DNA of 64,000 nt from Comamonadaceae bacterium (lineage in GTDB: Bacteria > Pseudomonadota > Gammaproteobacteria > Burkholderiales > Burkholderiaceae_C): NCBI GenBank assembly GCA_027486555.1, contig JAIXOX010000006.1:1-64000 (forward strand), given 5' to 3'. Shown one piece after another: positions 17,329 through 36,826 of this stretch. The position numbers were made by a program, and so were the translations under genes. The first letter of the stretch is position 1, and each line of letters opens with the position of its first letter. The notes under the pieces were generated by a model that was not told the origin of the DNA, ran no database searches, and worked only from the letters and a program-made list of their open reading frames with translations.

Positions 17329-18072
17329 TCAGCGCAGTGGGGCCTTGCGCAGCAAAACGATGTTGCGGTAGCCCAACCGTATCAAGCCTTGCTCTTGGAA
17401 GTGACGCAGCTGCTGATTGACGCGCTGGCGTGATGCGGAGGCCGCTTGGGCCAGGTCGGACTGGCTCACGCGCAGCATCACGCCGTCGGGCACGGCCACG
17501 CTGTTGAATTTGGCAATGCGCTCGAGCGCGGCCCACACCCGCTGCTCCAGGCTGTGCATGCCTCGGTCGGCCAGGGTGTCAAACAGTTGGTTGATGCGCA
17601 GGCCCAGGATGCGCAGCAGGTCCACGGAGACGGCGGGATCATGGCTGATCAGATCAACCAAGCGGGCTCGCTCAATGTGCAGCACCTGGGTGGCGCCCAC
17701 AGCCACCAAATCAGCGGGGTAGGTGGACTCGGCAAACACCGAACTCAGGCCCGAGATTTCGCCAGGCAGCATCCAGCGCAGCAATTGCTCTTCCCCTTCG
17801 GGGGTGGTCACGCTCACCCGCAAGCGCCCCTTGACCAGCAGCAAGGCCGTCGAGGTGGATTGCCCCCGGCTGAGCACCACTTGCCCTTCTGTCCAGTGGC
17901 GCAATACGCCCACGCTGTGCAAGGCTTTGGCTGAACGCTCTGTCAGGGCCGAGTTTTTAGCCCACACCTTGGTGAACACGTCGGCATCGAGCGCTTTGTG
18001 GGCAAGCTGGAGCGCTGTGCTTTGCTTGGATTTGACAGAACGGGTGGGCGGCAAAGGCATGGTGTCTTCCAT
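17329..18072 (-). CDS. Crp/Fnr-family transcriptional regulator
   Basis: cNMP-binding-like N-terminus (FTKVWAKN...LLLVKGRLRVSVTTPEGEEQLLRWMLPGEISGLSSVF) and C-terminal HTH (VSQSDLAQAASASRQRVNQQLRHFQEQGLI); divergent from the BMC operon. Confidence 0.88.
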   Translation of the reverse strand: MEDTMPLPPTRSVKSKQSTALQLAHKALDADVFTKVWAKNSALTERSAKALHSVGVLRHWTEGQVVLSRGQSTSTALLLVKGRLRVSVTTPEGEEQLLRWMLPGEISGLSSVFAESTYPADLVAVGATQVLHIERARLVDLISHDPAVSVDLLRILGLRINQLFDTLADRGMHSLEQRVWAALERIAKFNSVAVPDGVMLRVSQSDLAQAASASRQRVNQQLRHFQEQGLIRLGYRNIVLLRKAPLR

Positions 18073-18121
18073 GTTGATGAGAAATGTTTTTTGAGTGCTT
18101 TCCCCTAAATTGTCACATCAG

Positions 18122-18141
18122 AAACAATTCGCCGATTGTTT
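18122..18141. promoter_or_regulatory. Inverted repeat AAACAAT-N6-ATTGTTT, candidate operator
   Basis: Perfect 7-6-7 dyad in the divergent Crp/Fnr - ABC/BMC intergenic region. Confidence 0.5.
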
Positions 18142-18206: not shown

Positions 18207-19205
18207 ATGAAAATTTCTGCCCCTGCATTTGTACGCACCGCCCTCGGTGCCATCGCTCTGACTTTAGGCGCCAGCGCCATGGCGCAGTCCGTGGTGCGCT
18301 TCCAGGACTATCCTGGCACCGGCAATCTGTTGGTGCGTGTGGCCCAAGAACAAGGCTTCTGCCAGCAAGCGGGCATTCGCTGCGAACTGCGCACCATCCC
18401 GGCAGCGCCATTGGGCATGCAGACCATGCTCTCCGGTGACATCGAAGTGTTTTTTGGCCCGACCGAAGTGGCGGCTGCAGCCGTGGCCCGCAAGGCCCCC
18501 ATTTCCATCATTGCCGCAGGCTTCGTTGACCCGGTGTTTTTCATGGCCGCAGGTGCCAAAACCGAATTGGCGACCGAAAAAGAAGGCTACCCCGGTGTGG
18601 TCAAGTCCTTCAAGGGCAAGAAAATCGGCGTGACCCAACGTGGCTCAGGCGCTGAATTCCAGGTCATCGACATGCTGGCAGATGTGGGCCTGACCGCGAA
18701 CGATGTGACCTTTGTGGCCGTGGGTGCGCCCGACACCGCTTTCCCTGCCCTCACACGCGGCCAAGTTGATCTGATCATGACCTTCCCGCCCACCGATGGC
18801 ATGTGCGAGGTGCTGAAAGCCTGCCGCCTGGTGGTCGATCCCCGCAAAGGCCAAGGCCCCAAGAGCATGCTGGCCACCCGTGGCGGCGCTGGCACCATGG
18901 CGGTGAAGTCCGACTGGGCAGCCGCCAATCCGCAAACGGTGGCCGGTATCCGCAAGATGCTGGACATGTCGGATGCTTTCATCGCCAACCCGGCCAACTT
19001 CGGCAAGACACTGGAGATCCTGCGCAAGACCTTTGCCCTGCAATTGCCTAACGCAGACCAGATCGCTGAGGTCAGCCTGCGCAACTCCATCGGCAACTTC
19101 AAGGCCCGTGGCACCGTGCCCGCCATGCAGGCGGTGGCCGATTCCATGACCGAAAACAAGTTGCTGCCCGGCAGAGTGGACATGGCCCCAGCAGTCTTGC
19201 CTTGA
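18207..19205 (+). CDS. NitT/TauT-type ABC transporter substrate-binding protein
   Basis: MKISAPAFVRTALGAIALTLGASAMAQ signal peptide; VRFQDYPGTGNLLVRVAQEQGFCQQAGI...VKSFKGKKIGVTQRGSGAEFQ. Confidence 0.88.
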   Translation: MKISAPAFVRTALGAIALTLGASAMAQSVVRFQDYPGTGNLLVRVAQEQGFCQQAGIRCELRTIPAAPLGMQTMLSGDIEVFFGPTEVAAAAVARKAPISIIAAGFVDPVFFMAAGAKTELATEKEGYPGVVKSFKGKKIGVTQRGSGAEFQVIDMLADVGLTANDVTFVAVGAPDTAFPALTRGQVDLIMTFPPTDGMCEVLKACRLVVDPRKGQGPKSMLATRGGAGTMAVKSDWAAANPQTVAGIRKMLDMSDAFIANPANFGKTLEILRKTFALQLPNADQIAEVSLRNSIGNFKARGTVPAMQAVADSMTENKLLPGRVDMAPAVLP

Positions 19206-19239
19206 ACCTCGGCCATCGCGATATTTCCAGGGAGTGTTC

Positions 19240-20004
19240 ATGATCGACGCACAGCGCATCGACCTCAGTTTTGACGGCACCAATCTGGTGTTGCAGGGTG
19301 TAGACCTGCACGTCAAGGCGGGGGAGTTTGTCGCGCTCGCAGGCCCGAGTGGCTGCGGCAAAACCACCTTGCTCAACCTCTGCGCGGGGCTGGTGGATTT
19401 GCCTGCAGGGCAGCATCTGCGGGTGGCGGGCGAAAAGCCGGCGCTGGGCGGTCACAACGTGGCTTACATGTTGGCGCGCGACAGCCTGTTTCCCTGGCTC
19501 AACGCGCTGGACAATGCCGCATTCGGTCTGAAAGTGCGTGGTGTGCCCATCGCAGAGGCCCGTGAACGGGCCGCTGCGATGCTCAAGCAAGTCGGGCTCG
19601 GTGGTTCTGAGTACCGACTGCCCAAGGCCTTGTCGCACGGCATGCGCCAACGCGTGGCACTGGCCCGCACCTTTGCCATGCCCTCGCCCCTGTTGTTGAT
19701 GGACGAGCCCTTCGGGGCGCTGGATGCGCAAACCAAGCTGCAGTTGCAAGATCTGCTGCTGCAGCTGTGCCAAGACGGCAACCGTACGGTGCTGTTCGTG
19801 ACCCACGATTTGTCTGAAGCGGTGGCCCTGGCCGACCGGGTGATGGTGATGTCCTCCAGGCCCGGCCGCATCGTGGCCGATGTGCAAGTGCCGCTGGCGC
19901 GTCCGCGCTCCATCCGTGAGCTGCAAACCAGCGATGACTTCCACCACACCTATACCCAGGTGTGGAAACATCTCGAAGCAGGATGGGTGCACCATGAAGG
20001 CTGA
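19240..20004 (+). CDS. ABC transporter ATP-binding protein (NitT/TauT type)
   Basis: GPSGCGKTTLLNLCAGL; LSHGMRQRVALART; LLMDEPFGALDAQTK. Confidence 0.93.
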   Translation: MIDAQRIDLSFDGTNLVLQGVDLHVKAGEFVALAGPSGCGKTTLLNLCAGLVDLPAGQHLRVAGEKPALGGHNVAYMLARDSLFPWLNALDNAAFGLKVRGVPIAEARERAAAMLKQVGLGGSEYRLPKALSHGMRQRVALARTFAMPSPLLLMDEPFGALDAQTKLQLQDLLLQLCQDGNRTVLFVTHDLSEAVALADRVMVMSSRPGRIVADVQVPLARPRSIRELQTSDDFHHTYTQVWKHLEAGWVHHEG

Positions 20005-20749
20005 AACATTGCGCACGCTGGCACAACATGCCTTGTTTGTCTGCGTTTTTCTGGGTCTGTGGGAGTGGGGTGCCCGAGCCGGTTGGGTAGATCCGAGTTT
20101 CATGGGCAGTCCGCTGGGCATCATCACCTTCACGCTGGAAAACTTAACCAATGCCCGCTTGTGGGGCGATCTGGGCTACACCCTGTTGGCCGTGTTCGCG
20201 TCTTTTGTCATTGGCTCGGTTGCCGCCATGGTCACAGGCTTGGCCTTTGTGACCTGGCCCAAGTTCGAGGCCTTTTGCGACCCCTACATCTCGGCCTTCA
20301 ATGTGCTGCCGCGCATTGCCTTGGTGCCGCTGTTCATTTTGTGGTTTGGTTTGGGCATTGGCTCCAAGATTGCACTGGGCGTGTCGCTCACGTTCTTCAT
20401 CGTGCTGTCCAGCACGGTGGCCGGTATTCGCGGTGTCAGCCAAGACCATGTGACGCTCACCCGCACCCTGGGTGCCAGCAGTCGGCAGATGTTTTTCTCG
20501 GTCACCTTGCCCGGCGCTGTTCCGGTGCTTTTCTCAGGATTGCGCCTGGGCGTGATCTATGCCCTGCTGGGCGTGGTCGGTGCCGAAGTCATCGCTTCCG
20601 AGCGTGGCCTCGGGCAACAACTCGCTTATTTGGGCTCCACATTCAACGTCAACGGCGTGTGGTCACTGCTGTTTGATCTGGCCGTCATCGGGGTGCTCAT
20701 CATGAAGCTCATGAACTGGATCGAACGCCGTTTGCTGCACTGGCAATGA
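19994..20749 (+). CDS. ABC transporter permease (NitT/TauT type)
   Basis: MKAETLRTLAQHALFVCVFLGLWEWGARAG; hydrophobic; LTRTLGASSRQMFFSVTLPGAVPVLFSGLRLG EAA loop; overlaps the ATPase stop. Confidence 0.9.
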   Translation: MKAETLRTLAQHALFVCVFLGLWEWGARAGWVDPSFMGSPLGIITFTLENLTNARLWGDLGYTLLAVFASFVIGSVAAMVTGLAFVTWPKFEAFCDPYISAFNVLPRIALVPLFILWFGLGIGSKIALGVSLTFFIVLSSTVAGIRGVSQDHVTLTRTLGASSRQMFFSVTLPGAVPVLFSGLRLGVIYALLGVVGAEVIASERGLGQQLAYLGSTFNVNGVWSLLFDLAVIGVLIMKLMNWIERRLLHWQ

Positions 20750-20784
20750 GCCAGGCTGATTTGTCAAATCAAGGAGATACAACC

Positions 20785-21837
20785 ATGAAATTCCGTCACA
20801 TCCAAGTCGACCCCATGACGCCCACCATCGGCGGCATGATCAGCGGCGTTGATCTGAACACCACCCGATCAGAAGACGTTTACGAAGAGATCAAGCAAGC
20901 GCTGTGGCAACACGGTGTGGTGTTCTTCCGCAAGCAGGCCCTGAAGCCCGAGGCCTACATTCGTCTGGGCCAAAACTTTGGCGAGATGGAAAAGCACGAG
21001 TTCTTTCCTCACATAGAGGGCCATCCACACATTCAGTTGATTTCGAATGAGGGCAACGAAGCCCCTGAGACCGACCGCTGGCACACTGACGTGACCTTCC
21101 GCAAGAAGCCCAACATGGTCTCGATCTTGCGTATCACCGACTTGCCTCCATCGGGCGGCGACACGATGTGGATGCATGCGGGGGCAGCGTATGACGCGCT
21201 CAACCCCGGCATGCAACAAATGCTGGAGGGCCTGCAGGCCGACCATGATTTGCCTTGGCACTTTCGCCGCATCAATGCCAACGAGCGCTTGGCAAAGCGT
21301 GCCTCGGCCAAGAGCGGCATGATGGTGCAGGCCAGTGCCCAAGAGTGCAAGATGATCGAGAACACGCCCACGGTGACGCACCCGGCCGTGATCACACACC
21401 CCTACAACGGCCGCAAGATTTTGTTTGTCAACTCGATCTGGACCAAACGCCTGCTGGGCATGCACATGGACCTGTCCGAGTCGGTGCTGAACATGCTGTA
21501 CGAATGGGTCAAAAAGCCCGAATTCATGGTGCGTTTTCGCTGGGAAAAAGATTCGGTGGCGATGTGGGACAACTGCGCCACACAGCACTACGCCGTGTTC
21601 GACTACGCGCCACACTACCGCGCAGGCCAGCGCATGACCTGCGGCAGCTTTGTACCCACGCTGAACCCCGGTACCGGTGCTGCGGCAAGCGGTCAGCCTT
21701 CGGTCATGCGCCAGTTGCTCGACACCACCCGCATGCAAGCGGCCAGCCCAAGTGAGCAGAAGGCGGTGGAAGCGATCTTCAGCGCCCTCGAAAGCGTGGA
21801 CCTGAACGCCGTGGCCAACGCCGCGCAACGTCGTTGA
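20785..21837 (+). CDS. TauD/TfdA-family Fe(II)/2-oxoglutarate-dependent dioxygenase with C-terminal extension
   Basis: aaggagatacaaccATG; WHTDVTF (HxD) and QHYAVFDYAPHYRAGQRMTC distal His; ~350 aa with an extra C-terminal segment. Confidence 0.9.
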   Translation: MKFRHIQVDPMTPTIGGMISGVDLNTTRSEDVYEEIKQALWQHGVVFFRKQALKPEAYIRLGQNFGEMEKHEFFPHIEGHPHIQLISNEGNEAPETDRWHTDVTFRKKPNMVSILRITDLPPSGGDTMWMHAGAAYDALNPGMQQMLEGLQADHDLPWHFRRINANERLAKRASAKSGMMVQASAQECKMIENTPTVTHPAVITHPYNGRKILFVNSIWTKRLLGMHMDLSESVLNMLYEWVKKPEFMVRFRWEKDSVAMWDNCATQHYAVFDYAPHYRAGQRMTCGSFVPTLNPGTGAAASGQPSVMRQLLDTTRMQAASPSEQKAVEAIFSALESVDLNAVANAAQRR

Positions 21838-23370
21838 ATGCCTTTGAATGCCGTTACACCCGGAACACACCCTGTCATGAGTTCATTGAACCCCATCCAT
21901 CTGGCCGACCACGACCTGGCTGCCTTGCAGGAGGCCCGCGACTTGCTGGGCCGCGCCCGGCAAGCCGCTGCCACGCTGGCGCTTTGGACGCCTGAAGAAG
22001 CCAAACGCGTGGCCAAAGAAGTGGCTGCCGCTTTGCTGCCGCGCGCCGAGTTTTATGCCGAGTGGGCCGTGCGCGAAAGCCGCATCGGCAAAGTGGCCGA
22101 CAAGATCGCCAAGAACCAGATTGCCTGCACGCTGACGCCGACCGCTTGGGACAAGGTCGCTCTGGGTGGTGTGCGCCGCAACGACGCGTTGCGCATCGTT
22201 GAGATCGGTCGCCCTGCCGGTGTGGTGGTGGGCTTGTCCAACTCCACCTCGCCAGTAGCCACCATCATTTTCAAAACCATCTTGTGCCTGATGACGCGCA
22301 ACGCGCTGGTCATCTCGCCGCACCCGGTGGCCCTGGGTTGCTGCACCGCCGTGACCCACGAGTTGCAAGCAGCCATCGAAAAAGCCGGGGGTCCGGCACA
22401 TGCCTTGCAGATTCTGACCCGACCCACCGTTGAGGCCACAGGCGCGCTGATGCGCGACGCCCGCACCGACGTGATTTTGGCCACCGGCGGTACGCCCATG
22501 GTGCGCGCCGCCTACGGCTCGGGCAACCCCGCCATTGGCGTGGGCTCAGGCAATGTGCCGATTTATGTGGACGCCAGCGCCGACATCGAGGCGGTAGCCA
22601 AAACCATTGTGGTGGACAAGAACTTTGACCACGGCAGCCCCTGCTCGGCCCCTTCAGTGCTGATGCTGCACGCCAGCATTGCGCCGGAGATGCAGCAAGC
22701 GCTGGGCCGTCAGGGTGCGCATGTGTGCACCGAAGACGAGGCGCAGAAGATTCAAAACCACGCCTTTCCTGGCGGCAAGTTCAACGGCAAGGTGGTCGGC
22801 CGCCCCGCGTTTGAAATTGCACAAGCCGCAGGCGTGCAGGTGCCGCAAGATTGCCAGGCGCTGGTCTGCCCCATCGCCAACCCGCAAGCGGGCCATGTGA
22901 TGTTCAAGGAAAAGCTCTCGCCCATATTGGGCTGCGTCGTGGTGCCGAGCATGGACCAGGCCATTGAGGTGGCGCGCCTCATGCTGCAGCACAGCGGCGC
23001 AGGACACACCTCGGGCGTGCACACCGCCAACGCCGAGCAGGCGGTGGTCTGGGGCGCGGCCCTTGACTATTACCGCGTGGTCGTCAACGGCTCCACGGTG
23101 CACGACAGCACCGGTGCCAACACCGGCTTGCCCTACACCTTCACCATCGGCACGGGTTACGCGGGCAAAAGCTCGGTGGACTGCAACGTCGGCCCCGAGT
23201 TGTTGGTCAACTGGAAGCGCGTGGCCTTTCCGCTGCCAGGCGGCTGGGCCGGGGCCATGGCTTCGGGCGCAGCTTTGCCTGCGGCCTCAGGCCAACTGTC
23301 CACCCTCACGCCTGAACTTCAGGCCATGGTCCTGCGCATCGTGCAGGAAGAACTCGAACACCTTCGCTGA
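21838..23370 (+). CDS. CoA-acylating-type (BMC-type) aldehyde dehydrogenase with C-terminal encapsulation-peptide-like helix
   Basis: GLSNSTSPVATIIFKTILCLMTRNALVISPHP; VDKNFDHGSPCSAPSVL catalytic Cys; tail TPELQAMVLRIVQEELEHLR after a small-residue linker. Confidence 0.9.
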   Translation: MPLNAVTPGTHPVMSSLNPIHLADHDLAALQEARDLLGRARQAAATLALWTPEEAKRVAKEVAAALLPRAEFYAEWAVRESRIGKVADKIAKNQIACTLTPTAWDKVALGGVRRNDALRIVEIGRPAGVVVGLSNSTSPVATIIFKTILCLMTRNALVISPHPVALGCCTAVTHELQAAIEKAGGPAHALQILTRPTVEATGALMRDARTDVILATGGTPMVRAAYGSGNPAIGVGSGNVPIYVDASADIEAVAKTIVVDKNFDHGSPCSAPSVLMLHASIAPEMQQALGRQGAHVCTEDEAQKIQNHAFPGGKFNGKVVGRPAFEIAQAAGVQVPQDCQALVCPIANPQAGHVMFKEKLSPILGCVVVPSMDQAIEVARLMLQHSGAGHTSGVHTANAEQAVVWGAALDYYRVVVNGSTVHDSTGANTGLPYTFTIGTGYAGKSSVDCNVGPELLVNWKRVAFPLPGGWAGAMASGAALPAASGQLSTLTPELQAMVLRIVQEELEHLR

Positions 23371-23379
23371 AAGCCCTTC

Positions 23380-23994
23380 ATGTCCACTTTGCGCAGCTAT
23401 ATTTTTCTGGACCGCTTACAGCCACAGCTGATGTGTTTGCTGGGCTCCACCGCCCGTGGCTTTTTGCCGCGTCACAACGACGCCGCCATGGTCATCGAAG
23501 TGGCCCCTGGCATGGACATCGAGTGGTTGACCGACATCGCCTTGAAGCATGACAACGTCAAGCCCGGTAATTTGGTGGTCGAGCGTCAGTTCGGCTATCT
23601 GGAGTTCCACGGTCAGTCTTCTTCGTCGGTCAAGTCAGCCGGTGCGGCGGTGCTCGAAGCCATGGGTGTGAGCGAAAAAAGCGTGCTCAAGCCTGAAATT
23701 TTGGCCTCCAAAGTGATTGACCGGGTCGATGGTTACCACGCGTTTTTGATCAACCGCAGCAAGTCCGGCAGCATGCTTTTGCCCGGCGAGTCGCTCTACA
23801 TCATGGAGATGACCACATCTTCGTATGCGCTGCTGGTGGCCAACGAGGCCGAGAAAGCCGCCAACGTGAAGCTGATCGACTGCCGTTTCATGGGGCCAGC
23901 CGGTCGCCTGTACCTGTCGGGCAATGCGTCCGACGTGCGGGCCGCAGCCGCCGTGGCTGAAGCCGTGATCCGCGATGCAGGAGGTGCCGCATGA
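23380..23994 (+). CDS. Tandem-domain (BMC-T) microcompartment shell protein
   Basis: 204 aa; homologous to the 25623 BMC-T (RSYIFLDRLQPQ...VIEVAPGMDIEWLTDIALKHDNVKPGNLVVERQFGYLEFHG). Confidence 0.88.
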   Translation: MSTLRSYIFLDRLQPQLMCLLGSTARGFLPRHNDAAMVIEVAPGMDIEWLTDIALKHDNVKPGNLVVERQFGYLEFHGQSSSSVKSAGAAVLEAMGVSEKSVLKPEILASKVIDRVDGYHAFLINRSKSGSMLLPGESLYIMEMTTSSYALLVANEAEKAANVKLIDCRFMGPAGRLYLSGNASDVRAAAAVAEAVIRDAGGAA

Positions 23995-24971
23995 GCACAG
24001 ACGCCTTGCGCGAACAAATCCGGGCGCAGGTGCGCACGGCTTTGGGAGCAGGCCGAGCCAAGGATGACCCCGCTTCGGTGGCGGCCTTGATGCGCCGCTT
24101 CGAACAAGGTTACGAGTTGGTCAGTGCAGAAGCCATCGTGGCCTGCTTTGCGCCCGATGTGGTGTGGACCTTGCCCGACTCGCGCGTGCTCCGTGGCCGC
24201 GAAGCCTGTCTGGTGTTCTTGAAGGAGCGCTTTGCCAGCCCCACGGGCCCCAAGTTCTCGGATTCGCACATGAAGGTGCTGGGTCAGACCGTGGTGCAAA
24301 ACTACAAGGTGAGCGTGCCCCTGCCGGGTGGCCAATTGGTCACGCTGGACGGCACTGACGTGTACCAGATTCGCGATGGCCTTATCGCCCGCAAAGACGC
24401 TTATTGGAAGCAAATTGGCGCGCCCAAGCCTGCTGCTACTGCACCTGCACCTTCGCCTGCTGCCCCGGCGGCAGCGTCAGCGAATACACCTGCGACTGGG
24501 CCTCAGGGCGTGGTGGTGCCCTTGCGTGTGGGCACAGCGGCCCATGCACAAGCCCTGACCGATTTGTTCAAGCGTTTGGCCGCCAGTCCAGCTTTGCTGC
24601 AGGCAGCGCAATCGGGCTTGCTGCGTTTTGACATGAGTGTGGACGAAGCGGCTGTGAAAGCCGTGGCGGCCTCTGCTGGTACATCCGGTGGTGCCTCGGC
24701 CATGGCCGCCACCACCGCCGCCGACCCGGCGGCTTGCTGTTCGTCGTGCAAGGCAGGCAAGGCCTGCGAGTGCAAGGGCGACACCTGCGACATGCACGAT
24801 CACAAAGAAGACATGCCCGAACTCAAGGGCGTGATTGGCGAGAAACTGCTTAAAACCCTGCCAGCGAGCGTGAAAACCGTTCGCATCCACCCCAAAGCGG
24901 TATTGACCCCTTTGGGCAAAGAAGCCCTGCGCAAGCGGGGCATCACCATTGACCGAGGAACTGCCCCATGA
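23991..24971 (+). CDS. BMC-associated protein: NTF2/SnoaL-like domain, Cys-rich linker, TPLGKEALRKRGI C-terminal motif
   Basis: 326 aa; ALMRRFEQGYELVSAEAIVACFAPDVVWTLPDSRVLRGREACLVFLKERF...DGTDVYQIRDGLIARKDAYW; CCSSCKAGKACECKGDTCDMHDH; N-terminal TDALREQIRAQVRTAL amphipathic; ATGA overlap with the BMC-T stop. Confidence 0.75.
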   Translation: MSTDALREQIRAQVRTALGAGRAKDDPASVAALMRRFEQGYELVSAEAIVACFAPDVVWTLPDSRVLRGREACLVFLKERFASPTGPKFSDSHMKVLGQTVVQNYKVSVPLPGGQLVTLDGTDVYQIRDGLIARKDAYWKQIGAPKPAATAPAPSPAAPAAASANTPATGPQGVVVPLRVGTAAHAQALTDLFKRLAASPALLQAAQSGLLRFDMSVDEAAVKAVAASAGTSGGASAMAATTAADPAACCSSCKAGKACECKGDTCDMHDHKEDMPELKGVIGEKLLKTLPASVKTVRIHPKAVLTPLGKEALRKRGITIDRGTAP

Positions 24972-25237
24972 AAACAGGAACCGTGATCGGCCGCATCGTG
25001 GCCAGTAAACGTCTGCCCGAGTTGCCCGCTGGCGCATTGCTGGAGGTGCAACTGGACTACCCCAAGGACGTGGTGGTCTGCTACGACCCCATGGGCTGCG
25101 GCATTGGCGAGCGCGTGATGATCACCATCGGCGCACCCGCCGCCTGGTGGTTTGCCCCGGCCCACCCGCGTGTGGTGGCCGATGCGCTCATCATCGCCTC
25201 GCTGGACGACTACGACACCCCAACGCCCATGCGTTGA
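24968..25237 (+). CDS. BMC-P pentameric vertex protein (EutN/CcmL family)
   Basis: 89 aa; MKTGTVIGRIVASKRLPELPAGALLEVQL...DPMGCGIGERVMITIGAPAAWWF. Confidence 0.87.
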   Translation: MKTGTVIGRIVASKRLPELPAGALLEVQLDYPKDVVVCYDPMGCGIGERVMITIGAPAAWWFAPAHPRVVADALIIASLDDYDTPTPMR

Positions 25238-25320
25238 CCTCATGACGGTCGATGCGTTGAACTTTTTCCCCTCACCCTTTCCCTCAACCCTTTCTTTTTT
25301 AACCCCTCAAGGAGACTCTC

Positions 25321-25593
25321 ATGTCACAAGCCATCGGAATGATCGAAACCAAAGGTTATGTAGCTGCTTTCGCTGCCGCTGACGCCATGGTCAAAGCCGC
25401 CAACGTCAACATCGTTGGCAAAAAAGAAGTCGGTGGCGGTCTCGTCGCCATCATCGTTTCGGGCGACGTGGGTGCCGTCAAGGCCGCCACCGAAGCCGGT
25501 GCTGAAGCCGCAGGTGCGATCGGTGAAGTGGTGTCCTGCCACGTCATCCCACGTCCACACGCCGACGTGTCCAAAGCCTTCGACGGCAAGTGA
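25321..25593 (+). CDS. BMC-H hexameric shell protein (PduA/EutM-like)
   Basis: 90 aa; [64 protein letters not shown]. Confidence 0.97.
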
Positions 25594-25622
25594 TCGCAGG
25601 CTGTTGCAGATAAGGAGGCCGC

Positions 25623-26288
25623 ATGGCCACAACTAAAAAAGCCGCAGCGCCCACGAAACCGGCCGCTGAGCTTCGGGTTTACCTGACGCTCACCGACCTG
25701 CAGCCCCAGTTCTCCTCGTGGATGAGTTCGCCCCTGGGCGCACGCGGCTACGTGGCGATGCAAGGCACCAACGCGCTGCTGGTGGAGATCGCCCCCGGGC
25801 TGTCCATCCAGCGCGTGATTGACTTGGCCCTGAAAGCCGAGCCCACGCTGGAGCCGGGCATCCTGGCCGTCGAGCGGCAGTTTGGCGTGTTGGAGTTGCA
25901 CAGCAACGACAGCGCCGCCCTGCAGCGCGCAGGCCAGGTCATCCTGGACTGGATGGGGGCCAAGGCCCAAGACCAGCTGCGCCCGCATCTGCTGTACAGC
26001 GACATTCTGGAAGACGTGACCGATCAGCACGCAGTGCTGATGAACCGGACACGCCAAGCCAGCATGGTGTTGCCCGGACAGAACATGCTGCTGATGGAAG
26101 TGGCCCCGGCCCTGTTTGGTGCCCACATGGCCAACGAAGCCGAAAAAGTGGCACCCGACTTGACCTTGGTCGAGTGCAGCATGATCGGTGCCAGCGGCCG
26201 CATGTACCTGACCGGCAGCATGGCCTCGCTCGAAAAAGCCAAGGCGCATGTGGAGCAACTGCTCTCGGAGATTCCGGGCAGAGGCTGA
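25623..26288 (+). CDS. BMC-T tandem-domain shell protein
   Basis: 221 aa; paralog of 23380-23994; taaggaggccgcATG RBS. Confidence 0.9.
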   Translation: MATTKKAAAPTKPAAELRVYLTLTDLQPQFSSWMSSPLGARGYVAMQGTNALLVEIAPGLSIQRVIDLALKAEPTLEPGILAVERQFGVLELHSNDSAALQRAGQVILDWMGAKAQDQLRPHLLYSDILEDVTDQHAVLMNRTRQASMVLPGQNMLLMEVAPALFGAHMANEAEKVAPDLTLVECSMIGASGRMYLTGSMASLEKAKAHVEQLLSEIPGRG

Positions 26289-28822: not shown

Positions 28823-29617
28823 ATGACTACCCCACGTCAGCCTTCCATTTACATCCCCCATGGGGGCGGTCCGGCGTTCTTCATGCAGGGACCCATGCAG
28901 CGCATGTTTGCGCCCATGCAGGAGTTTCTCGCCACGGTGCACCAGACGCTGCCAGCCACGCCCACCGCCATTTTGCTGGTAACTGCCCATTGGGAGTCGC
29001 TGGTGGTGCGCTTAACGGGCAACCCCAAGCCCGAGCTGGTGTACGACTACTACGGTTTCCCTCCGGAGATGTACAACCTGCGCTATGACGCCCCCGGTGC
29101 ACCGGGCCTGGCCGCGCAAAGTGCTGCGCTGCTGAAAGCCGCAGACATCCAGGCGCAGGTTGACCCGGACTATGGCTGGGACCATGGTGTATTCATTCCA
29201 CTGAAGGTAATGTTTGCGCAAGCCAACATCCCGGTGGTCGCCATGTCGCTGCAAGCCGGGCTCGACCCCCTCGCCCACATCGCCATGGGCCAGGCCTTGC
29301 GATCCCTACGCGATGAGGGTGTACTCATCGTTGGTAGCGGCATGAGCTACCACAACCTCGGCGGCTCGCCCCATGCAGCCGCCGAGTCGCACGCATTCGA
29401 CGCATGGCTGGACACCGCCTTGCAGGGAGACAGCGCCCACCGCAAAACCCAACTCACCCAATGGGCAACAGCACCCACCGCCCGGCAGTCTCATCCCCGG
29501 GAGGAGCATCTGCTGCCACTTATGGTGGCCAGTGGTGCGGGCAGTGATGCACCGGCGCAGAAAATCTGGAAGGGCGCTGTCGGCCAGACCTCCGTGTCGG
29601 CCTGGGCGTTCGATTGA
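28823..29617 (+). CDS. LigB/DODA-type extradiol ring-cleavage dioxygenase
   Basis: IYIPHGGGPAFF; ILLVTAHWES; YGWDHGVFIPLKVMFAQANIPVVAMSL; GSGMSYHNL. Confidence 0.9.
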   Translation: MTTPRQPSIYIPHGGGPAFFMQGPMQRMFAPMQEFLATVHQTLPATPTAILLVTAHWESLVVRLTGNPKPELVYDYYGFPPEMYNLRYDAPGAPGLAAQSAALLKAADIQAQVDPDYGWDHGVFIPLKVMFAQANIPVVAMSLQAGLDPLAHIAMGQALRSLRDEGVLIVGSGMSYHNLGGSPHAAAESHAFDAWLDTALQGDSAHRKTQLTQWATAPTARQSHPREEHLLPLMVASGAGSDAPAQKIWKGAVGQTSVSAWAFD

Positions 29618-29787: not shown

Positions 29788-30131
29788 CTAACTAACTTGC
29801 TTGCAAGTTATGTCGGAACTAAAGGCGCGCAGGATGCGTCGGCGCAAGGTGGCCTGCACTTTGAACACGGTATCCCCATCAATGCCACTGGCCGTGTGGA
29901 AGACGACACCCGGCGCTGCGACTTGGACATCGGCATCCCCTGCCACTTCTTCAAACACCCCATCGACCACGCAAACGAGGAAGTGCACATGCTTGTTCAG
30001 GCTGGAGCCGAACCGATGAATGAAGGCGACTGCGCCGATGTGCAGCGCTGCCTTGTCTGCATTGGCCGCACCGGAGCTGTTGGATTGCAGGCCTTGCGCA
30101 ATGACCCGCAAGAAGATGCGCAGCACCATGG
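29788..30131 (-). mobile_element. IS91-family transposase internal fragment
   Basis: [14 protein letters not shown]...IGAVAFIHRFGSSLNKHVHFLVCVVDGVFEEV...FKVQATLRRRILRAF; no catalytic C-terminal half; ends at the duplicated BMC-H gene. Confidence 0.8.
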
Positions 30132-30146
30132 TCACAAGCCATCGGA

Positions 30147-30401
30147 ATGATCGAAACCAAAGGTTATGTTGCTGCTTTCGCTGCCGCTGACGCCATGGTC
30201 AAAGCCGCCAACGTCAACATCGTTGGCAAAAAAGAAGTCGGTGGCGGTCTCGTTGCCATCATCGTTTCGGGCGACGTGGGTGCCGTCAAGGCCGCCACCG
30301 AAGCCGGTGCTGAAGCCGCAGGCGCGATCGGTGAAGTGGTGTCTTGCCACGTCATCCCACGTCCACACGCTGACGTGTCCAAAGCTTTTGACGGCAACTG
30401 A
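30147..30401 (+). CDS. Second BMC-H copy, lacking the original start codon (first ATG is internal)
   Basis: Nucleotide homology to copy 1 runs from 30132 (codon 2); frame upstream reads TGG TCA CAA GCC ATC GGA ATG with a stop at 30102. Confidence 0.85.
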
Positions 30402-30430
30402 TCGCAGGCTGTTGCAGACAAGGAGGCCGC

Positions 30431-31096
30431 ATGGCCACTACTAAAAAAACAGCAGCGCCTGCCAAGCCGGCCGCTGAGCTTCGGGTTTACCTGACACTCA
30501 CCGACCTGCAGCCCCAGTTCTCTTCGTGGATGAGTTCGCCCCTGGGCGCTCGCGGCTACGTGGCGATGCAAGGCACCCATGCGCTGCTGGTGGAGATCGC
30601 CCCCGGGCTGTCCATCCAGCGCGTGATTGACTTGGCCCTGAAGGCTGAACCCACGCTGGAGCCGGGCATCTTGGCCGTCGAGCGGCAATTTGGCGTGCTG
30701 GAGTTGCACAGCAACGATGGCGCGGCGCTACACCGTGCAGGCCAGGTCATTTTGGACTGGATGGGCGCGAAGGCCGAAGACCAGTTGCGCCCGCATCTGC
30801 TGTACAGCGACATTCTGGAAAACGTGACCGATCAGCACGCCGTGTTGATGAACCGCACACGCCAAGCCAGCATGGTGCTGCCCGGCGACCACATGCTGCT
30901 GATGGAAGTGGCCCCGGCCCTGTTTGGTGCCCACATGGCCAACGAAGCCGAAAAAGTGGCACCCGACCTGACCCTGGTCGAGTGCAGCATGATCGGTGCC
31001 AGCGGCCGCATGTACCTGACCGGCAGCATGGCCTCGCTTGAAAAAGCCAAGGCGCATGTGGAGCAACTGCTCGCGGAGATTCCGGGCAGGGGCTGA
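30431..31096 (+). CDS. Second BMC-T copy
   Basis: 221 aa, about 10 substitutions relative to 25623-26288; same aaggaggccgcATG RBS. Confidence 0.92.
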   Translation: MATTKKTAAPAKPAAELRVYLTLTDLQPQFSSWMSSPLGARGYVAMQGTHALLVEIAPGLSIQRVIDLALKAEPTLEPGILAVERQFGVLELHSNDGAALHRAGQVILDWMGAKAEDQLRPHLLYSDILENVTDQHAVLMNRTRQASMVLPGDHMLLMEVAPALFGAHMANEAEKVAPDLTLVECSMIGASGRMYLTGSMASLEKAKAHVEQLLAEIPGRG

Positions 31097-34881: not shown

Positions 34882-34949
34882 TCCGGGTAGACCCCGGGTA
34901 GGTTTTGATTTCTTGTGGTCTGACAAGGACTTGCAAGTGGCGACCGATC

Positions 34950-34965
34950 TGGCACGGCACTTGAT
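34950..34965 (+). promoter_or_regulatory. Sigma54 -24/-12 promoter
   Basis: TGGCACGgcacTTGAT vs consensus TGGCACG-N4-TTGCW; 53 bp upstream of the monooxygenase start. Confidence 0.75.
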
Positions 34966-35017
34966 TGTTTCCCTGCACCGCACCATGTCGGGTGCGGCAC
35001 TACCAGGAGAGAAACCC

Positions 35018-36826
35018 ATGAGTGACAAGTCCCCCTCACAGAGGGCTCAGGCGTGGCTGGAGAGCTTTGAGCAAGCCATGCGCCAAGGTCAGGCCGCACA
35101 AGCTGCGGCCCTGTTTGACACCGACTGCTATTGGCGTGATCTGGTGTCTTTTACCTGGAACATTGGCACCCAGGAAGGCCACAGCGCCATCGAAGCCATG
35201 CTGCAAGCACGACTGGCCGATGTGCAGCCCTCCAACTTGGCGCTCGAAGGCGAAGCCACCGAGGCCGATGGCGTGGTCGACGCCTGGTTCACGTTTGAAA
35301 CCGGTGTGGCGCGCGGGCGCGGGCACCTGCGCCTCAAGGCCACGGCCCAAGGCGATAAGGCCTGGACGCTGTTGACCACCATGACTGAGCTGAAAGGCTT
35401 TGAGGAAAAAAAGGGCAACCGACGCGTCAAAGGGGCCGAACACGGGGCGCAAGTGGGCCGCAAAAGCTGGCTGGAGCGTCGCCAGGACGAAGAGGCCCGC
35501 CTGGGCTACGACGAGCAGCCGCATGTGCTGATCGTGGGCGGCGGTCAGGGCGGCATCATGCTGGCGGCCCGGCTACGGCGACTGGGTGTGCCCACCATCG
35601 TGGTCGAGCGCAATGAAAAAGCAGGGGACAGCTGGCGCAAACGCTACAAAAGCCTGTGCCTGCACGACCCGGTCTGGTACGACCACTTGCCCTACATGCC
35701 TTTCCCCGATGACTGGCCCGTGTTTGCCCCCAAGGACAAGATCGGCGACTGGCTGGAGATGTACACCAAGGTCATGGAGATCAACTACTGGGGATCGACC
35801 ACCGCCAAAAAGGCCACGTTCAACGAGGCCCAAGACGAGTGGGAAGTTGTGGTGGACCGGGCTGGCCAAGAGGTGGTGTTGCGCCCCAAAGAGCTGGTGT
35901 TTGCGCTGGGCGTGTCGGGCTACGCCAACGTGCCCAAAATTGCGGGTGCCGAAACCTTTATGGGCGATCAACACCATTCCAGCAAGCACCCTGGCCCCGA
36001 GGCCTACAAAGGCAAAAAAGCGGTGGTGCTGGGCTCCAACAATTCGGCGCACGACATCTGCGCGGCCCTGTGGGAAAACGGCGTCGATGTGACCATGGTG
36101 CAGCGCAGCAGCACGCACATTGCGCCATCGGAATCGCTGATGGAGCTGGCTTTGGGCGGGCTTTACAGCGAAGAGGCGGTGCAAAGCGGCATTGACCACC
36201 ACAAGGCCGATCTGGTGTTTGCCAGCGTGCCTTATCAGATCATGCACACCTTCCACATACCGGTGTACGACGAAATGAAAAAGCGCGATGCCGACCTGTA
36301 CGGTCGGCTGGAGAAGGCGGGCTTCATGTTGGACTTTGGCGACGATGGCTCGGGCTTGTTCATGAAGTACCTGCGCCGGGGCTCAGGTTATTACATCGAC
36401 GTGGGCGCGAGCGAGCTGGTGGCCAATGGCAGTGTCAAGCTCAAAAGCCACAACAACATCGAGCGCATCAACCCCAAAAGTGTGACCTTGACCGATGGCA
36501 CCGAGCTGGAGGCCGACTTGCTGGTGTATGCCACCGGCTACGGCTCGATGAACCACTGGCTGGCCGACCTGATCTCGCCCGAAGTGGCAGACCGCGTGGG
36601 CAAGGTCTGGGGCTTGGGATCGGGCACCACCAAAGACCCCGGCCCTTGGGAAGGTGAACTGCGCAACATGTGGAAACCCACGCAACAAAAGCAGCTGTGG
36701 ATCCATGGCGGCAACCTTCACCAAAGCCGCCACTACTCGCAGTTCCTGTCGCTGCAACTGAAAGCGCGTTACGAAGGCCTGGACACCCCCGTGTACAAGC
36801 CTGCACCGGTGCACCACTTGCGCTGA
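35018..36826 (+). CDS. Flavin-containing monooxygenase with N-terminal NTF2-like domain
   Basis: VLIVGGGQGGIMLAARLRRLGVPTIVVERNEKAGDSWRKRYKSLCLHDP; VVLGSNNSAHDICAAL; LLVYATGYGSM. Confidence 0.92.
   Translation: MSDKSPSQRAQAWLESFEQAMRQGQAAQAAALFDTDCYWRDLVSFTWNIGTQEGHSAIEAMLQARLADVQPSNLALEGEATEADGVVDAWFTFETGVARGRGHLRLKATAQGDKAWTLLTTMTELKGFEEKKGNRRVKGAEHGAQVGRKSWLERRQDEEARLGYDEQPHVLIVGGGQGGIMLAARLRRLGVPTIVVERNEKAGDSWRKRYKSLCLHDPVWYDHLPYMPFPDDWPVFAPKDKIGDWLEMYTKVMEINYWGSTTAKKATFNEAQDEWEVVVDRAGQEVVLRPKELVFALGVSGYANVPKIAGAETFMGDQHHSSKHPGPEAYKGKKAVVLGSNNSAHDICAALWENGVDVTMVQRSSTHIAPSESLMELALGGLYSEEAVQSGIDHHKADLVFASVPYQIMHTFHIPVYDEMKKRDADLYGRLEKAGFMLDFGDDGSGLFMKYLRRGSGYYIDVGASELVANGSVKLKSHNNIERINPKSVTLTDGTELEADLLVYATGYGSMNHWLADLISPEVADRVGKVWGLGSGTTKDPGPWEGELRNMWKPTQQKQLWIHGGNLHQSRHYSQFLSLQLKARYEGLDTPVYKPAPVHHLR

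Follow-up and report, generated by a model that had tools for sequence, protein, structure and literature searches.

A microcompartment operon with a TauD-family dioxygenase as its probable signature enzyme in a Comamonadaceae bacterium

Genes of the locus and their conservation

We analysed a stretch of 64,000 nucleotides from a Comamonadaceae bacterium (assembly GCA_027486555.1, contig JAIXOX010000006.1, positions 1 to 64,000), referred to here in its entirety as the window. Ten open genes on the plus strand, overlapping or closely spaced, fill positions 18207–26288 and encode an importer, a TauD-family Fe(II)/2-oxoglutarate (2OG) dioxygenase, an aldehyde dehydrogenase (ALDH), an accessory protein and the shell of a bacterial microcompartment (BMC):

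18207–19205, plus strand: substrate-binding protein (SBP) of a NitT/TauT/SsuA-type importer (PF09084, NMT1)
19234–20004, plus strand: importer ATPase (PF00005, ABC_tran)
19994–20749, plus strand: importer permease (PF00528, BPD_transp_1)
20782–21837, plus strand: TauD-family Fe(II)/2OG dioxygenase, proposed signature enzyme (PF02668, 3.5e-59; E. coli TauD, 1.6e-61)
21706–21834, plus strand: conserved C-terminal tail of TauD, 43 residues, proposed encapsulation tail (homology among shell-associated TauDs)
21877–23370, plus strand: CoA-acylating-type ALDH (Pfam Aldedh, 1e-22; PDB 5j78, 2.1e-88)
23305–23367, plus strand: C-terminal helix of the ALDH resembling an encapsulation peptide (LTPELQAMVLRIVQEELEHLR), near-invariant behind a variable linker
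23380–23994, plus strand: BMC-T1, double-stacked, MSM0275-like (Pfam BMC; PDB 5l39, 1.3e-70, phmmer)
23991–24971, plus strand: accessory protein with an optional NTF2/SnoaL domain (PF12680, SnoaL_2)
24735–24788, plus strand: Cys-rich stretch of the accessory protein (CCSSCKAGKACECKGDTC), with invariant Cys in 13 aligned proteins
24968–25237, plus strand: BMC-P, EutN/CcmL pentamer (PF03319, 9e-13)
25321–25593, plus strand: BMC-H, hexamer (PF00936, 1.5e-26)
25623–26288, plus strand: BMC-T2, double-stacked, MSM0271-like (PDB 5suh, 8e-71, phmmer)

An initial annotation, made from the letters alone, had read this region as a ten-gene, same-strand operon, and each gene was found where it had been placed; searches of Pfam, NCBIfam and the PDB likewise bore out its assignments for the importer, TauD, the ALDH, BMC-H, BMC-P and both BMC-T proteins. 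It had overlooked a divergent Crp-family gene with its palindrome, a second BMC-H/BMC-T2 pair, and the optional status of the NTF2 domain. Among relatives the conserved TauD start is 20782, with an in-frame ATG upstream at 20746, and the ALDH starts at 21877. BMC-H, BMC-P and BMC-T are thus encoded at one locus; BMC-T2 has no Pfam match and owes its assignment to the phmmer match to MSM0271, and PF00936 matches three sites in the genome, every one of them inside the window. Family searches, a phylogenetic tree and the C-terminal helix place the ALDH, as far as sequence comparison can, in the BMC-type acylating family with an encapsulation extension, while its score against TIGR02518 (343 bits) lies under the family cut-off.

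Scanning GTDB genomes with the ALDH yielded 38 loci, onto which the window's proteins were mapped back. The gene order that the initial annotation had offered for comparison, TauD-ALDH-BMC-T-NTF2-BMC-P-BMC-H-BMC-T, is intact in 26 of them as part of the longer series Crp (minus strand), SBP, ATPase, permease, TauD, ALDH, BMC-T1, accessory protein, BMC-P, BMC-H, BMC-T2. Nine further loci, cut by contig ends, agree as far as they extend, giving 35 other loci altogether; the remaining three (L038, L040 and L041) are other things. The 35 span records of Limnohabitans, Hydrogenophaga, Rhodoferax and Rubrivivax, the closest being Limnohabitans records with an ALDH 96% identical, and the Rubrivivax ALDH being 65% identical. 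These relatives suggest that the window derives from a Limnohabitans-type betaproteobacterium. Outside Rubrivivax, BMC-T1 is 95–100% and BMC-H 97–100% identical among the relatives, whereas the accessory protein drifts.

TauD follows the shell closely. Among 90 genomes of the genus, BMC-T1 is present in 30 and a TauD orthologue (91–100% identity) in 29, all within those 30; in the one shell-positive genome without the orthologue (G697), the assembly is fragmented and BMC-T1 lies close to where a contig begins. Because none of the 29 orthologues occurs without a shell in this set, conservation of TauD independently of the shell genes, which would have spoken against the operon as a unit, does not apply to TauD. 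The Fisher value for the TauD/shell table, 9e-23, merely describes it, because co-occurrence is not independent of ancestry. In a member of another genus of the family (G071), the series TauD-ALDH-BMCT1-accessory-BMCP-BMCH-BMCT2 is kept at 47% identity for TauD, 47% for the ALDH and about 65% for BMC-T1. These comparisons support the view that TauD and the shell have been conserved together as a unit. BMC-T matches of 42–45% in four other Burkholderiales genomes were set aside as possibly CsoS1D-like carboxysome proteins.

The C-terminus of TauD is also particular to the shell-linked enzymes. It consists of a 43-residue tail behind a linker of 14–45 residues, with a column-wise conservation of 92% in the tail and 83% in the linker over 30 rows, mostly of close relatives. 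The tail is homologous in all complete shell-associated TauDs and can be recognised at 47% TauD identity (GMGMLDDSRMQRLSDTERRAVKAVFEAISSLDLADIARRSANV, in G071). The nearest TauD homologue outside a BMC locus (L072) has a core 58% identical, closer than that of G071, yet it ends two residues past the core. No homologous tail was found in it or in 29 other TauDs of the family that we examined; most of the 29 end within two residues of the core, and two carry unrelated extensions of 39–45 residues. A variable linker followed by a conserved terminal helix is equally the pattern of the ALDH of the same operon, whose helix LTPELQAMVLRIVQEELEHLR is near-invariant behind a linker that varies in length and sequence, as in encapsulation peptides. 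The TauD tail is thus probably an encapsulation tail.

A core related to the RMM compartment

The best PDB matches of both BMC-T proteins are the two BMC-T proteins of the RMM (aminoacetone) compartment of Mycobacterium smegmatis (MSM0271-0275). In the corresponding locus on plasmid pRHL2 of Rhodococcus jostii RHA1, the order ALDH, BMC-T, hypothetical protein, EutN, BMC-H, BMC-T is that of the window core, with identities of 41% for the ALDH, 59% for BMC-T1, 53% for BMC-T2, 75% for BMC-H and 41% for BMC-P, and G732 has the identical core order behind a kinase and an aminotransferase. In a maximum-likelihood tree of 14 ALDH sequences (midpoint root, some long branches), the TauD-type loci are monophyletic (99/98) and stand beside RMM (97/97), and the two share a node of 100/99 that excludes EUT and others; the window ALDH thus falls in a separate sister clade rather than within RMM. 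From the kinship of the shell, the shared gene order and the ALDH tree, the locus is therefore a sister type of RMM in which the aldehyde would come from another enzyme. By the same token, its ALDH and shell core are not a new architecture but the RMM core.

The difference lies at the front. RMM loci carry a kinase, an aminotransferase and a permease, whereas TauD and an ABC importer take the place of the amino-alcohol kinase and aminotransferase here, both of which are absent from the locus; the regulator is GntR-family in RMM and Crp-family in the window. A homologue of the RMM kinase was found nowhere in the genome at E<=0.01, an absence that is not final because the genome is 92% complete; the same query finds the kinase across phyla in G732 (39%). 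Aminotransferase matches in the genome reach 28–32%, the general class III level.

The accessory protein also sets the locus apart from RMM by its Cys-rich stretch and optional NTF2 domain. Its layout comprises an N-terminal helix, the NTF2/SnoaL domain, the Cys-rich stretch and a C-terminal TPLGKEALRKRGI motif; five relatives are without the NTF2 domain and retain the other three elements together with a middle segment. RMM accessory proteins from the equivalent locus position can be aligned to the protein at its N-terminal helix and C-terminal motif, with pairwise E-values of 0.002–0.02, values so weak that position weighs as much as sequence. The NTF2-like protein of the initial annotation accordingly keeps its domain, but it appears to be an RMM accessory protein into which that domain is optionally inserted. 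The Cys-rich stretch, CCxxCxxGxxCxC, has C249, C250, C253, C259 and C261 invariant in 13 aligned proteins, is absent in the G071 and RMM accessory proteins, and may be a metal binder.

One of the three loci of other kinds, on a Colwellia contig (L038), has an RMM-like aminotransferase, a kinase, an MFS transporter and an ALDH adjacent to one another, and no shell gene was detected within ~10 kb on each side.

The dioxygenase, its substrate and the alternatives

As expected of the TauD/TfdA family (HxD...H), the window TauD has the iron triad H99/D101/H255 and the 2OG arginine R266, and it keeps the equivalents of H70 and R270 (alignment, E. coli TauD numbering). In the E. coli TauD structure, H70 and R270 contact the sulfonate of taurine, and D94, N95, S158 and F206 form the amine pocket; these four are replaced by E, T, H and W in the window protein, which differs from E. 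coli TauD also by its 43-residue C-terminal tail. Because the amine pocket is replaced, taurine itself seems an unlikely substrate; the taurine dioxygenase equivalog NF007104 scores 254 bits, under its cut-off of 313. Kept sulfonate contacts together with a changed amine pocket would make sulfonates or sulfate esters the likeliest substrates. For a sulfonate in particular we put the chances at about even, since the SBP resembles sulfonate binders weakly. The best NCBIfam matches of the importer ATPase include taurine/sulfonate-type ATPases, below cut-off.

On this basis we consider it probable that the locus is a metabolosome operon with the TauD-family dioxygenase as its signature enzyme, cleaving a sulfonate or sulfate ester other than taurine. 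The ABC importer would take up the anionic substrate, and TauD would use O2 and 2OG to hydroxylate the carbon adjoining the leaving group, so that the product would collapse into an aldehyde and, most likely, sulfite or sulfate. From the aldehyde, the CoA-acylating ALDH would then make acyl-CoA inside an RMM/aminoacetone-type shell of BMC-H, BMC-P and two double-stacked BMC-T proteins. The C-terminal helix would anchor the ALDH to this shell, as the conserved tail probably does for TauD, and a dedicated Crp-family regulator would govern the operon from one palindrome. TauD encapsulation, the hand-over of the aldehyde, the kind of substrate and the action of the regulator on the palindrome are steps that we infer. 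The proposal in the initial annotation that an O2-dependent hydroxylase supplies the aldehyde thus gains from the co-conservation of TauD with the shell; taurine, one of the substrates that it had listed, loses ground, and an oxygen-dependent metabolosome has a precedent in ARO (see below).

Several observations weigh against this reading. The locus is without a dedicated sulfite gene, and also without phosphotransacylase (PTAC) and alcohol dehydrogenase, the absence of which, like that of a kinase, the initial annotation had rightly reported. The SBP is only weakly sulfonate-like, with an SsuA subfamily match below cut-off and PDB matches to 3qsl at 1.2e-14 and 3e4r at 1.6e-5. PF03404, the sulfite-oxidase family, occurs in 23 of 30 shell-positive and 39 of 60 shell-negative genomes (p=0.34); it was dropped as a co-occurring marker, and many of its matches may be Sox proteins. 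The hydrophobic moment of the TauD tail is not above that of shuffled sequence, nor is that of the ALDH helix, and the AlphaFold models are too poor to help (mean pLDDT 36 for TauD, 53 for the accessory protein).

The alternative that survives best keeps the whole machine and changes the bond: the target would be an alkyl sulfate ester or aryloxy acid, or else some further activated C-H, with release of sulfate, phenol or something else instead of sulfite. AtsK and RdpA, which share with E. coli TauD the fold family and the Fe and 2OG ligands, are significant PDB matches too, and NMT1-type binding proteins serve many ligands; the retained H70, however, is Val in RdpA and Gly in other Comamonadaceae TauDs, and we give this alternative a substantial chance that stays clearly short of even. 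It is a good deal less likely that TauD works in the cytosol and the ALDH alone is enclosed, the shell importing an aldehyde made outside. A Crp/importer/TauD cassette does exist without shell or ALDH (L075, described below), and the function of the tail is read from its sequence, but a conserved tail behind a variable linker is specific to the shell-linked TauDs, and their co-occurrence with the shell is strict. An RMM amino-alcohol compartment whose kinase and aminotransferase are encoded elsewhere, with TauD as an add-on for another substrate, would explain the RMM-like shell, ALDH and gene order, and is improbable in view of the kinase and aminotransferase searches above. A chance neighbourhood or a remnant operon without shell function, to which a second BMC-H copy lacking its native start might point, is contradicted by the conservation of BMC-T1 and BMC-H and can be dismissed.

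Returning to the dioxygenase-fed metabolosome, its closest functional counterparts share part of the scheme. The one published precedent found for oxygen dependence, ARO of Actinobacteria, likewise makes its aldehyde with an O2-dependent dioxygenase (PMC10470539), but its enzyme cleaves the ring of 2-aminophenol, its ALDH is of a non-CoA kind that lacks an encapsulation peptide, and its shell, built of BMC-H and BMC-P, is simpler; neither such a ring-cleaving dioxygenase nor a non-CoA ALDH belongs to the present operon. The one precedent found for desulfonation in a BMC, an anaerobic one, is IslAB of Bilophila wadsworthia, acting on isethionate (PMC8667426). There, as proposed here, C-S cleavage gives an aldehyde and sulfite, followed by an acylating ALDH; IslAB is, however, a strictly anaerobic glycyl-radical enzyme, with PTAC and other partners in the locus and a different shell set. 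PTAC is also missing from the published description of RMM. The window locus fits the definition of a metabolosome with incomplete core (MIC), in which the ALDH is present and PTAC and/or alcohol dehydrogenase are missing from the locus (PMC4207490), a catch-all class (Axen 2014; Sutter 2021); MIC1 as given by Axen, with dehydrogenases, a hydrolase, a phosphatase and an MreB-like protein, is unlike it in gene content. Elsewhere in the Burkholderiales, a MIC1-like BMC locus on plasmid RPME01 of Methylibium petroleiphilum (L094) encodes an ALDH, EutJ, and malate as well as alcohol dehydrogenases, and lies near a pyruvate phosphate dikinase gene.

Many Limnohabitans genomes predate the 2021 catalogue. 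Its main text gives only two phylum outliers for RMM2, and the locus may therefore sit there under an unnamed MIC label; the same main text has no dioxygenase type besides ARO. Searches for TauD or a dioxygenase with BMC, and for Limnohabitans with BMC, found no paper describing the system, the main catalogue being covered by its main text. Whether the locus is an uncatalogued type we judge to be about evenly balanced.

A bolder proposal, which we advance tentatively and rate somewhat short of an even chance, is that this is the first Fe(II)/2OG-dioxygenase microcompartment, an organelle for aerobic desulfonation whose origin lay in the union of a Crp/importer/TauD cassette with an RMM-type core, TauD acquiring a tail that targets it to the shell. 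If so, enclosed metabolism would gain the chemistry of an O2- and 2OG-dependent enzyme, the anaerobic isethionate organelle would have an aerobic counterpart, and the shell-plus-ALDH module would be re-usable with a new front end. According to PMC8217296, the enzyme that makes the aldehyde is not known for many catalogued metabolosomes that possess an ALDH; here conservation names one, equipped with a putative targeting tail, and the bacteria that carry it are culturable and live in freshwater. The locus also sharpens the question of how NAD+ and CoA are recycled in such shells without PTAC or alcohol dehydrogenase.

Regulator, importer and duplicated shell genes

Further features lie on either side of the operon:

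17329–18072, minus strand: Crp-family regulator (cNMP_binding and HTH_Crp_2, Pfam), divergent from the operon
18107–18130, no strand: putative operator, palindrome AAATTGT-N10-ACAATTC (conservation among intergenic regions)
30147–30401, plus strand: second BMC-H copy, without the native first six residues (PF00936; 94.4% duplication)
30431–31096, plus strand: second BMC-T2 copy, full length (open reading frame; 94.4% duplication)

Wherever a locus extends far enough, the Crp gene stands beside the operon, at 73–93% identity in close relatives and 30–37% in those of the Hydrogenophaga/Rubrivivax type. The gap between it and the SBP gene has diverged except for a block with AAATTGT-N10-ACAATTT, which nearly all of 31 loci share and which can still be made out in Hydrogenophaga and Rubrivivax; the exact core AATTGT-N10-ACAATT has its single occurrence in the 3.83 Mb genome here, within 18107–18130. 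Another perfect palindrome, AAACAAT-N6-ATTGTTT at 18122–18141, was dropped since it is not conserved, and a scan for sigma-70 promoters found none.

In eight loci (L007, L015, L016, L020, L021, L023, L025 and L026) the SBP is 47–51%, the ATPase 67–70% and the permease 63–65% identical to those of the window, with TauD, ALDH and shell at about 90% or more, so that two importer variants occupy one position. G071 has the importer on the opposite strand, with a LysR-type regulator between it and the TauD-shell module, and L075 has Crp, importer and a TauD (39% identical) without shell or ALDH. Of the joint tie to the shell implied by the initial annotation, the part concerning TauD therefore stands, while the importer appears less tightly bound. 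A similar palindrome occupies the corresponding gap in G113 (L074), and L075 has a degenerate version; together with the L075 cassette, these suggest that Crp, importer and TauD already formed a cassette when they were linked to an RMM-type core, the order of events being conjecture because the L075 TauD is only 39% identical.

The second BMC-H/BMC-T2 pair lies 4.8 kb downstream and stems from a 966-bp duplication (30131–31096 versus 25323–26288, 94.4%). Because the breakpoint falls at the BMC-H start codon, the in-frame start of the second BMC-H lies six codons later. BMC-T2b is intact, and the single BMC-T2 gene of several relatives matches it better. Between the two shell-gene pairs, 28823–29617 encodes a LigB-family ring-opening dioxygenase that is not kept with the shell in relatives. 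Farther on, at 34913–36826, downstream of an AcoR-like sigma-54 regulator, a SnoaL-like domain is fused to a flavin monooxygenase; L020 likewise has such a fusion past its shell genes, unlike most other loci examined. In the BMC-P/BMC-H gap, an eleven-pair stem-loop at 25229–25257, from a scan whose total was near the shuffled expectation, is followed by a T-rich run and possibly sets the relative levels of the shell proteins.

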